Program-made: the position numbers and the translations under genes | NCBI GenBank assembly: GCA_002868865.1 | Contig: PKUC01000054.1 | Span: 1 to 64,000, forward strand | Origin: Desulfuromonas sp. | GTDB taxonomy: Bacteria; Desulfobacterota; Desulfuromonadia; Desulfuromonadales; Geopsychrobacteraceae | Length of the DNA stretch: 64,000 bases | Reading direction: 5' to 3' | Shown here: one piece after another, positions 3,128-9,178 of the stretch | How positions within the stretch are numbered: the first letter of the stretch is position 1 | Layout of the letters: each line of letters begins with the position of its first letter | Notes under the pieces: generated by a model | Database searches by the model: none | What the model was told of the DNA's origin: nothing | What the model saw: the letters and a program-made list of their open reading frames with translations, nothing else

Positions 3128-3164
3128 TCATTGACAGCCCAAACAGGGCTACCGTATAACCAAC

Positions 3165-3345
3165 ACAGCAAAAGCAGACTGCGCCCAGACAAGGGAAGAG
3201 GGGTGTAACTCCCCCGCGGACCCGCCGCTGTAAGCGATGACAAAGGACCATTTAATGCCACTGCGCACAAAAAGATGCGCGGGAAGGCGGTCCGGAGGAA
3301 GATTCGCGAGCCAGAAAACCTGTCGGACGCTTCAGACATATCGAC
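3165..3345 (+). promoter_or_regulatory. Cobalamin (B12) riboswitch aptamer
   Basis: The plus strand shows the conserved cobalamin-riboswitch core: an AAGGGAAgagGGGTGtAA block (about 3191-3209), the CCCGCCGCTGTAA block (about 3220-3232) and the B12-box-like GAGCCAGAAAACCTG at 3308-3322. The order and spacing match the class. It lies just upstream of the cobalamin gene cluster that begins with cbiK. It should bind adenosylcobalamin or a related cobalamin and reduce expression of the operon. The boundaries are approximate because the outer P1 stem was not folded. Confidence 0.92.
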
Positions 3346-3349
3346 TCCC

Positions 3350-3401
3350 CGGGCTTCGGGAGGCGATCGTTACAAAGCAATCACACAACGGATGAAGCCC
3401 G
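3350..3401 (+). promoter_or_regulatory. Candidate antiterminator helix of the B12 riboswitch
   Basis: CGGGCTTC at 3350-3357 is exactly complementary to GAAGCCCG at 3394-3401, and that second segment is also the 5' arm of the terminator stem. The two helices are mutually exclusive, which is the arrangement expected of an expression platform working by transcription termination. This is read directly from the sequence; that it operates in cells is inference. Confidence 0.65.
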
Positions 3402-3425
3402 CAAACCAGATTTTTGCGGGCTTTT
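3395..3425 (+). terminator. Rho-independent terminator of the riboswitch expression platform
   Basis: AAGCCCGCAAA (3395-3405) pairs with TTTGCGGGCTT (3413-3423) across a short loop and runs into TTTT. It lies about 70 nt after the B12 box and before cbiK, so it is a conditional terminator controlled by the riboswitch rather than the end of an upstream gene. Confidence 0.85.
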
Positions 3426-3452
3426 GCTGTATAACAACGGAAGCAACCCTCA

Positions 3453-4430
3453 GTGAGCACCTCCAAAGTACGCCACATACTGACAGCCCTGCTGTCCTGT
3501 CTCCTGTTCAGCAGCGGAGGGCACGCCATGCTTTCAGAGAAAACTGCAATCGTTGTCGCCTCGTTCGGGACCAGCTATCCATCCGCCGTCGATTCTCTGC
3601 TGGCCATTGTTGACGACATCGAAACGACATATCCGGGCACACCGGTCCAGATGGCCTTCACCTCCAATATCATCCGTAAGAAATGGCATGGTCGCGCCGC
3701 TGACCAAGCCTACCGAACTGCACACCCGGAGGTGCCTGATTATTTCTACCAGATCAAAAACGTGCTCGGAACCCTGGCAGATTTTCAGGATCAGGGCTAC
3801 AAAACCATCGTGGTTCAACCGACCCATCTGACCAATGGTGAAGAATATCTAGATCTGCAGTCCTACATCAACGGACTGCTCTCCATCCAGACAATCAAGG
3901 ACCGCTGGCGCCCCTTCAATTACATCGCCCTCGGCAGACCGCTGATGGGCCTCGGGAGCCCTGTCGTCACAAACGAAACCGATCTGCAAAAGCTCGCAGC
4001 AGCGCTCCAAGAAGATGTCGCCCTTGCAAAGCAGCAGCAGGCAGCCCTGATCTACATGGGACACGGTAACGAGCACCTGTCGACCGGTCTCTATACAGCC
4101 TTTGAGCGAGTAATGAATGTCCGCTATCCACAGATCACCACGCTGGTGGGCCTGGTCGAAGGACACCCCGACTTTACCGATGTGGTCGCAAAGCTCCACC
4201 AACTCCCGCCCAAAAAGGTCATCCTCAAACCGCTGATGGTTGTCGCCGGCGATCATGCCAGTAACGATATGGCGGGTGATGAGCCGGATTCCTGGGCATC
4301 GCAACTGCGTTCTGCCGGATTTGACGTCACACCCATCATGCATGGACTGGGCGACAATGCCGCGGTCCGCACCCTGTTTGTCGACCACCTGCAGGATGCT
4401 GCCACGGAGGCCGGGATTGAGCTGCGCTGA
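3453..4430 (+). CDS. cbiK: Anaerobic sirohydrochlorin cobaltochelatase, CbiK type, with predicted signal peptide
   Basis: CbiK inserts Co2+ (or Fe2+) into sirohydrochlorin early in anaerobic cobalamin synthesis. Family metal and catalytic positions are visible as His204 (YMGHGNE), Glu236 (VEGHPD) and His268 (GDHASNDMAGD). Residues 1-25 (MSTSKVRHILTALLSCLLFS...GGHA) look like a Sec signal ending in an A-type cleavage site, so the long form would be periplasmic, as known for CbiKP of Desulfovibrio. The long form begins at GTG 3453 with little Shine-Dalgarno support. An in-frame ATG at 3528 (residue 26) has GGAGG seven nt upstream and would give a cytoplasmic enzyme of normal length. It is the first gene after the B12 riboswitch. 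Confidence 0.9.
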   Translation: MSTSKVRHILTALLSCLLFSSGGHAMLSEKTAIVVASFGTSYPSAVDSLLAIVDDIETTYPGTPVQMAFTSNIIRKKWHGRAADQAYRTAHPEVPDYFYQIKNVLGTLADFQDQGYKTIVVQPTHLTNGEEYLDLQSYINGLLSIQTIKDRWRPFNYIALGRPLMGLGSPVVTNETDLQKLAAALQEDVALAKQQQAALIYMGHGNEHLSTGLYTAFERVMNVRYPQITTLVGLVEGHPDFTDVVAKLHQLPPKKVILKPLMVVAGDHASNDMAGDEPDSWASQLRSAGFDVTPIMHGLGDNAAVRTLFVDHLQDAATEAGIELR

Positions 4431-5301
4431 CGCCTTAAGCTGTAACAACCGACGCTGCGAGATCGAAGTCTCCAGTCTCAGCCGATCGTTCGGCAACACC
4501 GTTGCGGTGGACGATATCAGCTTCAATGTCGGACGCGGGGAGCTGTTCGCCTTTCTTGGCCCTAACGGCGCCGGCAAGACCACCACCATCAACATGCTCA
4601 TTGGCCTACTGATACCGGACAGCGGCGAGGTCCGTTATCACGGTCAACAGTTCGACCCCAAACAACTCGCGGTCAAGCGCCTGATCGGTGTCGTCCCGCA
4701 ACACAACAACCTCGACCGCGAACTGACCGCCGCCGAAAACCTGCTGATCCACGGCCGCCTGTTCGGCATGAGCGGCAAACAGTTGCACCAACGGATCGAT
4801 ACCTGTCTCGCATTTGCCGACCTGACCGCAAAACGGGACACCCCAACCGCAAAGCTCTCAGGAGGCATGAAGCGCAAGCTGGTGATCGCCCGCGCCCTGC
4901 TCCACCAACCGGAGATCCTCTTTCTCGACGAACCGACCGTCGGTCTCGACCCACACAGCCGCCGCAAAATGTGGGCTTTTCTAAGGCGCATCAACAAAGA
5001 GCAGAAGTGCACAGTGTTTCTCACCACGCACTATATCGAAGAGGCGGAAGCCTTAGCGGATCGGGTCCTGATCATCGATCAGGCCAGAGTTATCGCCGAA
5101 GGCTCACCGCAACAGCTCAAACAATCCGCAGGAAACGTCGTCCTCGACATCTATCGTGACGACGATATCTGCAATGAATTCTTTGCTGATCGTCCGGCAG
5201 CCCTGCAGAGGCTGGAACAACTCGACACCTCGGTGCGCATCCGTGAAACCACCCTCGAAGACGTTTTTCTACAACTGACCGGCAAAAGACTCGAACCATG
5301 A
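4417..5301 (+). CDS. ABC-2 type exporter, ATP-binding subunit
   Basis: This is an ATPase of the DrrA/CcmA-like exporter class. It has Walker A GPNGAGKTT, signature LSGGMKRK, Walker B LFLDEPTVGLD and an H-loop in TTHYIEEAEAL, plus a C-terminal extension typical of drug, heme or polysaccharide exporters. The ORF track starts at 4240 deep inside cbiK. The TTG at 4417 has GGAGG six nt upstream, overlaps cbiK by 14 nt and gives a normal 294-aa protein, so it is chosen here. It is translationally coupled to the permease that follows through an ATGA overlap. The substrate is unknown; the operon suggests a tetrapyrrole, corrinoid or metal-related compound. Confidence 0.88.
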   Translation: MSCADALSCNNRRCEIEVSSLSRSFGNTVAVDDISFNVGRGELFAFLGPNGAGKTTTINMLIGLLIPDSGEVRYHGQQFDPKQLAVKRLIGVVPQHNNLDRELTAAENLLIHGRLFGMSGKQLHQRIDTCLAFADLTAKRDTPTAKLSGGMKRKLVIARALLHQPEILFLDEPTVGLDPHSRRKMWAFLRRINKEQKCTVFLTTHYIEEAEALADRVLIIDQARVIAEGSPQQLKQSAGNVVLDIYRDDDICNEFFADRPAALQRLEQLDTSVRIRETTLEDVFLQLTGKRLEP

Positions 5302-6041
5302 TACTGGCCGGTGTGCGTGGCATCTACCTGCGCGAAATCCTGATCTTACGGCGCAAGCTGATTAAAACCCTGATGGCCGCAGCCATCTCTCCGGCGCTAT
5401 TTCTCCTCGCGTTCGGTTACGGGGTCGGCCGCGGTACCCAGATCAGCGGAGTCGATTATCTGGCGTTCCTGCTGCCCGGCCTGCTGACCATGAGCAGCAT
5501 GAATCAAGCGTACAGCATCGCAACCGAGATCAATATCTCCCGCTTTTACTTCAAGGTGTTTGAAGAATATCTGCTGGCCCCGATCCAGCGCTGGGAGATC
5601 ATCATCGGAGAGACCTGCTACGGCATCACCAAAGGGCTCATCCCCGTCCTGATTATCGGTCTATACAGCCTGCTGACCGGAGTCACCCTGAGCTTCGGTC
5701 CACTGTTTCTGGTAGCGCTGTTACTGCATCTGACGATCTTTGCCCTGCTCGGTTTCATCGCCGCGATGATCGTCAAGAGCCACAGCGATCAGGCCACAAT
5801 CAATGCCTTTTTGATTACGCCGATGATGTTTCTGTCCGGCACGTTTTTTCCTGTCGAGCAGATGCCTATGGCGATCCGCGCAGTCGCCAGCATCTTCCCC
5901 CTGACCTATTCAACACAACTGATCCGCGCAGCCCTGACACCGGGAGCCGAGGTCAACCTTGCTCTGCTTGGCACGTTGACAGTCATAGCGATGGTACTGT
6001 TTCTGATCGCCAAACAGATCGTCGCCAGGGTGGAGTTATGA
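5298..6041 (+). CDS. ABC-2 type exporter, permease subunit
   Basis: This 247-aa protein has about six hydrophobic segments and the ABC-2 family layout, including the late FLSGTFFPVEQMP segment before the last membrane helices. It is the membrane partner of the preceding ATPase, overlaps it by ATGA, and overlaps the next gene in the same way. ABC-2 systems normally export drugs, lipids, polysaccharides or heme. An exporter within a B12-riboswitch operon of uptake and synthesis genes is unusual and its cargo cannot be inferred from sequence. Confidence 0.88.
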   Translation: MILAGVRGIYLREILILRRKLIKTLMAAAISPALFLLAFGYGVGRGTQISGVDYLAFLLPGLLTMSSMNQAYSIATEINISRFYFKVFEEYLLAPIQRWEIIIGETCYGITKGLIPVLIIGLYSLLTGVTLSFGPLFLVALLLHLTIFALLGFIAAMIVKSHSDQATINAFLITPMMFLSGTFFPVEQMPMAIRAVASIFPLTYSTQLIRAALTPGAEVNLALLGTLTVIAMVLFLIAKQIVARVEL

Positions 6042-6988
6042 AGAAACTTCTGGTGGGCCTGTTTCTGCTGACCCTGGGAGCGTCCTGCCTGATCGGCGCT
6101 ACGGCGATCAATCCCTTTGCGGCCAGTCCGATCGAGCGGGACATCCTGCTTTCACTGCGGCTGCCACGGGTGCTGTTCTCCGCGGTGATCGGTGCCATGC
6201 TCGGCCTGTCGGGCAGCGTGTACCAACTCACCCTGAAGAACCCGCTGGCCGACAGCTTCACTACCGGCGCCGCCAGCTCATCAGCATTGGGCGCTGTACT
6301 GGCGATCGCCTTTGGCTTGCCAGTCGCACTGGTCCCAATCGCCGCCCTCGGCACAGGACTGATCGGCCTGATAACGGTCTACCGACTGTCGAAAACCAAC
6401 AACGTCATCAATCCGGTTACCATGATTCTGGCCGGAGTGGTGATGAATATCATCGCCTCTTCGGTGATCAGCTTCGCCAAGTATTTCTTTGAAGATGCGC
6501 TCTCGTCCATCGTCTTCTGGCTGATGGGCGGCTTTTTCGTTGTCGACTGGAGCAAACTGCTGCTGTGTGCTGCAGTCCTGCTGATCTCGTATCTACTATT
6601 CACCGGACGTGCGCTACACCTCAACATGCTTGCCCTTGATGAACATTCTGCACAGACCCTCGGCGTCAACGTCAACAGATTACGCAGTATTGCCTTTGTC
6701 ATCGCGACTGCGCTGGTGGCTGTGGCCGTCAGTCACACCGGGGTCATCGGCTTTGTCGGCCTGATCGTTCCGCACGTGGCGCGCGGCCTGTTTGGCAGTG
6801 ACATGAAGCAGAACCTGTTCTTTTCATCCCTGCTCGGCGCACTGCTGCTGGTTCTGGCCGATGCCGTATCACGCAGCATCATTCCCGGTGGCGCAGAGCT
6901 ACCGGTTGGTATTATCACCGCGCTGCTCGGAGGCGTGTTCTTTCTCTACCTGCTGAGAACCCGGCGCGAAAGGTTCTGGCATGGCTGA
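6038..6988 (+). CDS. btuC: FecCD/BtuC-family ABC importer permease
   Basis: This is a 316-aa permease of the iron-siderophore/cobalamin (FecCD) family. It contains LPRVLFSAVIGAMLGLSGSVYQ near the N-terminus, the NPLADSFTTG block, a central GVNVNRLRSIAF loop that contacts the ATPase, and VGFVGLIVPHVAR-type sequence late (GFVGLIVPHVAR). These are hallmarks of BtuC and FhuB/FecD. With the ATPase and binding protein that follow it makes a complete importer. Co-location with cbiK, cbiL and a B12 riboswitch favours cobalamin, cobinamide or another corrinoid as substrate; a siderophore is the alternative. Confidence 0.88.
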   Translation: MKKLLVGLFLLTLGASCLIGATAINPFAASPIERDILLSLRLPRVLFSAVIGAMLGLSGSVYQLTLKNPLADSFTTGAASSSALGAVLAIAFGLPVALVPIAALGTGLIGLITVYRLSKTNNVINPVTMILAGVVMNIIASSVISFAKYFFEDALSSIVFWLMGGFFVVDWSKLLLCAAVLLISYLLFTGRALHLNMLALDEHSAQTLGVNVNRLRSIAFVIATALVAVAVSHTGVIGFVGLIVPHVARGLFGSDMKQNLFFSSLLGALLLVLADAVSRSIIPGGAELPVGIITALLGGVFFLYLLRTRRERFWHG

Positions 6989-7718
6989 ACTGCGGGTTTC
7001 TAAACTGCACTTTAAGCGCGGCACCTTTTGCCTGGCATTAGACGACATAACCATCGTCCAAGGCGAAAAAGTTGCAATCCTCGGCGAAAACGGCAGCGGC
7101 AAGAGTACCCTGCTGCAGCTCCTTTGCGGACTGCTGAGTGGCCATGGCCGTATCAGCTATGACGGACGCATCCTGAAAAACATCCCGGTTGCCGAACGCG
7201 CACTCCTGTTTGCGCTGCTCACCCAGACATCAGAGGTCATCTTTCCGTTCAGCGTTGAAGAAGTCGTCCGCTTTGGACGTTTCCCCCATGCGCAGGGCAA
7301 CAATTTTTCAGACGAGGACGATGAACTGACAGAACACCACCTGAACATGCTCGACCTGAGCGCCCTGCGTGACCGCCATTTCAGCCAACTGTCCGGCGGA
7401 GAGCAGCGGCGCGTCATGCTGGCCCGAGTCCTCAATCAGAAGGCACCGATCATCTACCTGGATGAACCGAACGCCAGCCTCGACATCCGCCACACCCTCG
7501 ATATCTTTGAGCTGCTGACCAGCAGAGAGGAGACCGTCATCGCCCCGGTTCATGATATCAACCTGGCAGAGCGTTTTTTTGACCGTTTCCTGCTGCTGAA
7601 ACGAGGAACGCTGCTCGCCGACGTAAAACGGGATCAACTAACCCCGGAACTGCTCACGGAGACCTATGATGTCCAGGTTGCTTGCGGCGCTGCTGCTTTT
7701 ACTTTTCAGCACCAGTAG
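6981..7718 (+). CDS. btuD: ABC importer ATP-binding protein (BtuD/FecE-like)
   Basis: The ATPase has Walker A GENGSGKSTLLQLL, signature LSGGEQRRVML, Walker B IYLDEPNASLD and the H-loop in APVHDINLAERFFDR. At 245 aa it is the length of BtuD/FhuC-type subunits. It overlaps the permease gene by 8 nt, and its 3' end overlaps the binding-protein gene by 53 nt, so the three are translationally coupled. It powers the preceding FecCD permease. Confidence 0.88.
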   Translation: MAELRVSKLHFKRGTFCLALDDITIVQGEKVAILGENGSGKSTLLQLLCGLLSGHGRISYDGRILKNIPVAERALLFALLTQTSEVIFPFSVEEVVRFGRFPHAQGNNFSDEDDELTEHHLNMLDLSALRDRHFSQLSGGEQRRVMLARVLNQKAPIIYLDEPNASLDIRHTLDIFELLTSREETVIAPVHDINLAERFFDRFLLLKRGTLLADVKRDQLTPELLTETYDVQVACGAAAFTFQHQ

Positions 7719-8448
7719 TTTCGCTGCGCAGCGGATCGTTGTGCTCGCTCCGGCTGCCGCCGATATTATTGAAAAACTGGATGCGGGTGTTCTGGTGGTC
7801 GGTAAAACCCGCAATGTTGAGGAATTCCCGCGGGCACAGAAAGTCGGCTCGCATATCCGGCCCAACCTGGAGATCATCCGCGCCCTTGATCCCGACCTGC
7901 TGATTATCTCTTCCAACAGATTCTTTTCTGCGGAGATGGCGGGACAGATCGACGCGCAGCTATTTCACTATGCACCCGACAGCCTCAACGACATTCTTCA
8001 GCAGATCAACGACCTGGCAGCGCTCCTCGAAAGAACCGAACAGGCCCGGACACTGATCGCAGCACAGCGTCGAAAACTCTCGCAACTGCAACCGATAGAA
8101 AAACCGCCCGCTGTGATCTATGAAATCACCGAAGCCCCCCTGACCATCGCGGGCAATAACAATATCCTTGCCGACCTGATCAACACGGCAGGGGGCCGGC
8201 TCATCAGCGTCGGTAGCCGCAAGATGCTCCGTTTTAATCCCGAAGCGGTTCTCAGCTCTCAGCCCGATGTCTATATCTGGCAAGTGGGGCCGATGAACCA
8301 GCACCCGACACCACCAGCTGAACGCGCCCTCTACCATCTGCTCGATGCCGATTTTCTGAAGGTCGATCAACTTCAGTACTCACGCGCCAACACCCGCAGT
8401 TTCGATAATGCGCTGACCCTGAACCGTTATTTCAGAGAAAGACAATGA
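7666..8448 (+). CDS. btuF: Periplasmic corrinoid-type binding protein (BtuF-like)
   Basis: The protein begins with a Sec signal (MMSRLLAALLLLLFSTSSFA) and continues with the two-lobe periplasmic binding fold of the BtuF/FecB class: RIVVLAPAAADIIEKL, then RPNLEIIRALDPDLLIIS, and a second lobe with INTAGGRLISVGS and FNPEAVLSSQPDVYIWQVG. It is 260 aa, typical for BtuF. The signal peptide is encoded almost entirely inside the 3' end of the ATPase gene. A GGAG motif lies a few nt before the tandem ATGs. Substrate is inferred from the B12-regulated context only. Confidence 0.85.
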   Translation: MMSRLLAALLLLLFSTSSFAAQRIVVLAPAAADIIEKLDAGVLVVGKTRNVEEFPRAQKVGSHIRPNLEIIRALDPDLLIISSNRFFSAEMAGQIDAQLFHYAPDSLNDILQQINDLAALLERTEQARTLIAAQRRKLSQLQPIEKPPAVIYEITEAPLTIAGNNNILADLINTAGGRLISVGSRKMLRFNPEAVLSSQPDVYIWQVGPMNQHPTPPAERALYHLLDADFLKVDQLQYSRANTRSFDNALTLNRYFRERQ

Positions 8449-8452
8449 ACCT

Positions 8453-9178
8453 ATGAACGCTCTCCCCGGACATTTTTACGCAGTCGGTATCGGCCCGGGA
8501 TCACCCGACCTGCTGACCGTTCGCGCGGTAAAAATCATCGAATCGGCCGACATTATCCTCACGCCGCAGGCAAAAGGCAGCAATCGCTCTCTGGCACTCC
8601 ACGCCATCGAGCCCTACCTGAGGTCACAGGAGATCCTGACCGTCAACTATCCCATGCAGCGAAACGGTCATGACACCCGCGAGCGCTGGAACAGCATAGC
8701 TGTAGAGATCTTAAACAAACTGCAGCAGGGCGTATCAGTTGCGATGGTCACCATCGGAGACCCTCTGATTTTTGCAACGACCAGCTATATGATCTCCGGT
8801 CTGAGTACAGCCCTGCCATCCGAAAACATCCACCTTATCCCTGGCATCAGCGCCTTCCAGATCGGCGCCAGCCGTTTCCACGATCCGCTCACCCTGCAGG
8901 AAGACCGACTGACATTGATGTCGGCCACCGACTTGACCGCAGTAGAGAATGCTCTTAACCATTGTGAGACACTGGTCCTCTATAAAGCGGCCAGTGTTAT
9001 TGATGAGTTACTGGAAATACTAAAAAAACGCGGTTTACTGCCCACAACAAAGCTTGTCAGTTGCGCAGAACAGGGAGAGGGGGAGCTGATTTTAAACGGA
9101 CTAGAAAACGGCATACCTGAAGATCTGAGCTATATGACCACACTCATTATCAGACTTGGCGAAAAACAGTGGACGTAA
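8453..9178 (+). CDS. cbiL: Cobalt-factor II / precorrin-2 C20-methyltransferase
   Basis: This is a SAM-dependent tetrapyrrole methylase: YAVGIGPGSPDLLTVRAV at the N-terminus, TIGDPLIFATTSY around 103-115, and LIPGISAFQIGAS. The overall pattern, with ILTPQAKGSNRSLAL and PMQRNGHD-type insertions, fits CbiL/CobI, which adds the C20 methyl group just after cobalt insertion by CbiK. It is the last gene of the riboswitch operon, 4 nt after btuF. The other cbi genes are not in this window. Confidence 0.88.
   Translation: MNALPGHFYAVGIGPGSPDLLTVRAVKIIESADIILTPQAKGSNRSLALHAIEPYLRSQEILTVNYPMQRNGHDTRERWNSIAVEILNKLQQGVSVAMVTIGDPLIFATTSYMISGLSTALPSENIHLIPGISAFQIGASRFHDPLTLQEDRLTLMSATDLTAVENALNHCETLVLYKAASVIDELLEILKKRGLLPTTKLVSCAEQGEGELILNGLENGIPEDLSYMTTLIIRLGEKQWT

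Follow-up and report, generated by a model that had tools for sequence, protein, structure and literature searches.

How might a bacterium that makes vitamin B12 anaerobically place a cobaltochelatase on both sides of its inner membrane from one gene? Anaerobic B12 makers need this enzyme in the cytoplasm, where sirohydrochlorin and CbiL are. The window (the whole 64,000-nt stretch of a Desulfuromonas sp. contig that was analyzed) encodes a CbiK with a predicted export signal. A genome search returned this single CbiK, and no CbiX was found in the window genome. Desulfovibrio vulgaris has an exported and a cytoplasmic class II cobaltochelatase with conserved metal-site motifs, but its CbiKP (structures 2xvx, 2xvy, and 2xvz) and CbiKC come from two genes, whereas the window genome has one gene and no second chelatase. 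CbiKP is described as a periplasmic cobaltochelatase (PMC4063343).

The CbiK ORF occupies positions 3453–4430 of the plus strand, starts with GTG, and encodes 325 aa, beginning MSTSKVRHILTALLSCLLFSSGGHA and continuing as M26LSEKTAIVVASFGT. Its features are as follows.

3439–3443, plus strand: GGAAG, weak Shine-Dalgarno (SD) sequence of the upstream GTG; anti-SD pairing -3.5 kcal/mol
3453–3527, plus strand: GTG start and predicted Sec-type signal peptide of 25 codons (MSTSKVRHILTALLSCLLFSSGGHA); nearly all homologues have a signal of similar character in front of the domain
3516–3520, plus strand: GGAGG, SD of the internal start, in the codons GGA GGG (Gly-Gly); -10.0 kcal/mol; base-level conservation in seven relatives
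3528–3530, plus strand: internal in-frame ATG, codon and residue 26, first after the predicted cleavage site; Met in 14 of the 14 nearest homologues
3528–4430, plus strand: CbiK class II cobaltochelatase domain, 300 aa, mature or cytoplasmic form; aligns with 2xvx and 1qgo; PF06180 at 226.9 bits in a profile search (cut-off 26.2, residues 32–317)

The putative metal-site histidines and the NGxEY glutamate occur in the motifs MGHGNEH, AGDHASND, and NGEEY, which align with 1qgo and 2xvx. Compared with these enzymes, the window protein is longer and only distantly similar (131 bits to 2xvx and 122 to Salmonella CbiK, 1qgo), and it scores 172.8 bits against the NCBIfam CbiK equivalog, below the 400-bit cut-off. 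The signal peptide and cleavage site were called by eye from hydropathy and the -3/-1 residues; by these features the protein is predicted to have a cleavable Sec signal of the kind that defines CbiKP. The anatomy described in an earlier note on this DNA was recovered in every part: a Sec-type signal of 25 residues from the GTG at 3453 ends in GGHA, the in-frame ATG at 3528–3530 is the first codon past the predicted cleavage site, GGAGG at 3516–3520 lies seven nucleotides 5' of it, and the GTG has scant SD support (-3.5 versus -10.0 kcal/mol at the ATG).

The best-supported reading, to which we assign a probability of roughly 0.55, is that this single gene may provide a cobaltochelatase to two compartments by means of dual starts. 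An mRNA under cobalamin riboswitch control would be translated from the upstream GTG (weak here; ATG plus SD in most relatives) into a Sec-exported precursor that is cut after GHA, and from the ATG at 3528, which has a separate SD, into an enzyme that stays in the cytoplasm and begins at the same Met26. With the internal start at residue +1, formylation would be the only difference between the mature proteins. In the cytoplasm the enzyme could supply cobalt-sirohydrochlorin to CbiL, and in the periplasm it may cooperate with the operon's BtuCDF and ABC-2 transporters. We infer from sequence comparison that both starts are probably used. If so, one gene with a start codon at the cleavage site supplies the same mature enzyme to both compartments, ordinary N-terminal proteomics cannot separate forms that share an N terminus at Met26, and start-site annotation of exported enzymes is affected. 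If the internal site is unused, the site of cobalt insertion in these organisms becomes a testable question.

A search of the open-access literature turned up no description of a CbiK with dual starts. Signal-peptide-less proteoforms made from in-frame internal starts are described for PagC and OmpX in Salmonella (PMC11005335), and an internal start gives a form of Porphyromonas gingivalis HBP35 that lacks the signal peptide (PMC2907840). As with OmpX and PagC, the mature lengths of the two forms of window CbiK may be indistinguishable. Unlike these three proteins, which are backed by experiment, window CbiK is a candidate identified by sequence comparison; it is also a B12 biosynthetic enzyme, and its internal start codon lies exactly at the predicted cleavage site.

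The riboswitch, transporters, and CbiL are encoded around cbiK.

3159–3341, plus strand: cobalamin riboswitch aptamer RF00174, 84.5 bits (gathering threshold 31.5)
3395–3425, plus strand: terminator-like hairpin followed by a T-run, by inspection (AAGCCCGCAAA...TTTGCGGGCTTTT); likely riboswitch expression platform
4432–5301, plus strand: ABC-2 type ATPase, DrrA/NodI-like, start approximate; conserved neighbor of cbiK
5298–6041, plus strand: ABC-2 type permease; conserved neighbor of cbiK
6038–6988, plus strand: BtuC-like permease; conserved in the cbiK loci of relatives
6981–7718, plus strand: BtuD-like ATPase; conserved in the cbiK loci of relatives
7666–8448, plus strand: BtuF/IsdE-like periplasmic binding protein; conserved in the cbiK loci of relatives
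8453–9178, plus strand: CbiL, the C20-methyltransferase of the step after cobalt insertion; TIGR01467, 174.5 bits (cut-off 163.25)

The order cbiK-ABC2-btuCDF-cbiL is shared with relatives of the window (BtuC identity 69–87%), and RF00174 also lies just 5' of cbiK in most relatives scanned. The window has one cobalamin riboswitch; a tandem pair precedes the cbiK operon in L034 (5376–5539 and 5626–5812), L007, L008, and L011. In L173 a second methyltransferase-like match comes after the ABC2-btuCDF-cbiL block, and then cbiK with its own riboswitch. Operons of the Pseudodesulfovibrio type (L091, L094, L098, and L099) begin with an exported cbiK and have a second cbiK right after cbiL. Elsewhere in the window genome, a separate cluster encodes CobT, CobS, CbiA, CbiC, CbiD, CbiG, CbiB, and methyltransferases of the anaerobic B12 pathway; a CbiL query had no match in this cluster. 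Control of cbiK-cbiL and btuCDF by a B12 riboswitch was described for Desulfovibrio in 2004, and in the relevant passages of that paper (PMC545781) the delta-proteobacterial gene set and regulation are the same as in the window, which differs in the ABC-2 transporter placed in between. Those passages do not discuss a signal peptide or an internal start of cbiK.

Taken by itself, the internal site is strong relative to other internal ATGs. Of the 362 internal ATGs that lie in frame within long ORFs of the window, only 0.8% reach -9 kcal/mol or better, none reach -9.9, and the figure at -9 within CbiK bodies is 0.7% (n = 761). The window sequence alone is nevertheless only mildly unusual, because random synonymous codons for FSSGGHA match its SD energy in 15% of trials; synonymous shuffles of each sequence in the GGAGG/AGGAG group of relatives gave values of 0.09–0.31, also only mildly unusual. 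Predicted mRNA accessibility provided no backing for the internal start in the window (unfolding cost 13.5 at the internal site, 10.1 as the body mean, and 7.2 at the GTG site) and was mixed among relatives. It is the comparison across relatives, not the single sequence, that lifts the putative internal SD above chance.

For this comparison we used the 14 nearest homologues (L001, L003–L013, L020, and L034). All 14 signals differ greatly in sequence, with almost no conserved residue, and the Met at +1 is invariant; the cleavage residues of L013 are less typical than those of the others. Among 106 secreted-like ORFs of these loci, only 5 have Met at +1, and at least four of those are CbiK. Of the 14 homologues, 9 have a good SD before the internal ATG. 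Seven relatives encode it as GGA-GGN (Gly-Gly) or GGA-GGA-AGT (Gly-Gly-Ser), and in all seven relatives carrying GGAGG the shared glycine codon is GGA, a codon that accounts for 21 of 183 Gly codons as counted from the fetched loci of nine clade members. Synonymous sites among the seven are nearly randomized, with pairwise third-base identity at fourfold sites of only 0.38–0.56. One codon is used by all seven in 6 of 60 invariant fourfold columns, and in 2 of 16 Gly columns, the SD glycine included. The Gly-Gly pair shifts by one codon between subgroups, and GGAGG remains 7–10 nt from the ATG.

The exceptions form one subgroup, L006, L009, L010, L012, and L020, in which the ATG is retained, in some cases with AAA codons after it, and no good SD was found. 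The subgroup is nested inside the SD-bearing group on the tree, which makes loss of the SD the most likely history. Start codon and SD are thus conserved in bases beyond the constraint of the peptide, with loss of the SD in five close relatives. Homologue alignment, suggested in the earlier note as a check, came out mostly in line with the proposal: the signal is kept in character and the ATG is invariant, and the SD is good in 9 of 14 and missing from these five. The upstream starts of most relatives are ATGs with their own SDs (-5.6 to -11.8) before an intact signal, so the signals there are most likely translated. The alternative that the signal-like stretch is a dead, untranslated leftover is therefore unlikely and was rejected for the lineage.

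If the internal start serves a cytoplasmic need, it may depend on which other chelatases a genome has. Within the family of the window (44 genomes), CbiD and CbiK each occur in 26 genomes and together in 24, and full CbiX was found in G026 only; CbiX is common in other families of the order. The combination of a sole CbiK and CbiD without CbiX holds for the window genome and most of its relatives, and the single-contig genome G016 encodes CbiD and a single exported CbiK but lacks CbiX. More broadly, the only CbiK is predicted to carry an export signal in many Desulfuromonadales and in some Deferribacterales and Desulfobulbaceae.

CbiK, CbiX, and CbiD content was searched in 45 further genomes, which were pooled with the order of the window. 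For exported CbiKs in CbiD-positive genomes (n = 77), the best post-signal ATG or GTG was scored, an SD of -5 or below counting as good. G058 (L034) was excluded from the comparison because its second CbiK is a fragment; this fragment (L210, 4907–5278) has no signal and adjoins a long, transposase-like ORF on the opposite strand. A good-SD post-signal start is present in 28 of the 42 CbiKs whose genomes have no other chelatase and in 9 of the 35 whose genomes do (Fisher p 0.0005, kinship ignored). The statistics are weakened because the genomes are kin: kinship-independent pairs amount to about 1.8 for and 0.1 against a link with chelatase content, too few for significance. Such starts were found in 0 of 4 CbiD-negative control genomes and in 20 of 106 (19%) of secreted-like ORFs in general.

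The same architecture occurs in Deferribacterales (L043–L045 and L047 at -6.6, L048 at -10.3) and in the group that includes L017, L090, L097, and L173. Most members of this group have GTG or ATG at position -11, which is precisely where L106, a CbiK lacking a signal, begins. Where a second chelatase is present, Desulfobulbales and Desulfovibrionaceae often have a post-signal ATG, with an SD of only about -1 to -3. The association is not strict in either direction. G093, G094, and most genomes of family f17 have CbiX and still carry an SD-backed internal start. Sole-chelatase, CbiD-positive genomes with no convincing internal site are Ferrimonas L042 and L046, Vibrio L040, G043, L065, and L092. 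An obligatory internal start wherever CbiK is the sole chelatase was rejected as a strict rule on account of the Ferrimonas, Vibrio, and G043 exceptions, and the need for two compartments is likewise not strict, because the sole exported CbiKs of the two Ferrimonas, Vibrio, and G043 lack a convincing start. The dual-start proposal of the earlier note thus appears to hold for the anatomy and for the conserved signal and internal start, and to be weakened by these exceptions and by the five relatives without an SD.

These exceptions are better accommodated by the main rival, export only with a metabolite shuttle, than by dual starts. Sirohydrochlorin would leave the cell, perhaps via the ABC-2 transporter, cobalt would be added in the periplasm, and the product would return via BtuCDF to CbiL, the internal ATG being a relic of an ancestral start. 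We consider this unlikely for the window, although the conserved operon cbiK-ABC2-btuCDF-cbiL, with the next pathway enzyme beside an importer, is consistent with it, as are the sole exported CbiKs of L042, L046, and L169, all in CbiD-positive genomes and with no good internal start. We know of no sirohydrochlorin export. A relic would not be expected to hold Met in 14 of 14 homologues and GGA in 7 of 7 amid scrambled synonymous sites, and the operon of the Pseudodesulfovibrio genomes contains, next to cbiL, another CbiK gene. PMC545781 reports CbiK-type delta-proteobacteria without known cobalt transporters, which fits the shuttle.

For Ferrimonas, G043, and perhaps the relatives that lost the SD, we regard periplasmic insertion as a rather doubtful possibility, with sirohydrochlorin moving out and cobalt-sirohydrochlorin coming back through the BtuCDF-like importer to CbiL. 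Such an importer is encoded in the same operon as cbiK in both Ferrimonas and the window. If this is true, cobalt ions would not have to pass through the inner membrane.

Dual starts also have to be weighed against use of the internal start only in this species, with the GTG and signal-like stretch (nearly) untranslated and CbiK cytoplasmic. This is improbable. It would account for the difference in SD energy between the GTG and the ATG, and unexported CbiKs do exist (L015/L016, L181, and L106), but the signal retains its charge, its hydrophobic core, and an AxA-like end, the upstream start of relatives is an ATG whose SD can reach -11.8, and the GTG region is more accessible than the internal site.

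Dehydrogenase-chelatases of the CysG/Met8 type are able to insert cobalt. In a further reading, CbiK is exported only, such an enzyme inserts cobalt in the cytoplasm, and CbiK in the periplasm would bind haem or cobalt, a role proposed for CbiKP of D. vulgaris (the title of Lobo et al. 2017, as cited in PMC8587615, calls that protein a haem-binding cobaltochelatase). This is distinctly improbable: the haem-binding protein FetB (9b86) is a sequence relative, but cbiK and cbiL share one riboswitch operon, and in the family of the window, where 26 genomes have CbiK and 26 have CbiD, 24 have both.

The short CbiK near cbiD in family f17 (L187, L188, L190, L191, and L198) has a lipoprotein-like signal, and a conserved, SD-backed ATG (-5.4 to -11.4) lies in frame just before its core domain; CbiX is present in four of these five genomes. 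In Marinisporobacter (L107 and L109), an ORF encodes a lipoprotein-like signal and two CbiK domains (open frame of 584 aa in L107), and an in-frame ATG or GTG with an SD near -12 precedes the first CbiK domain.
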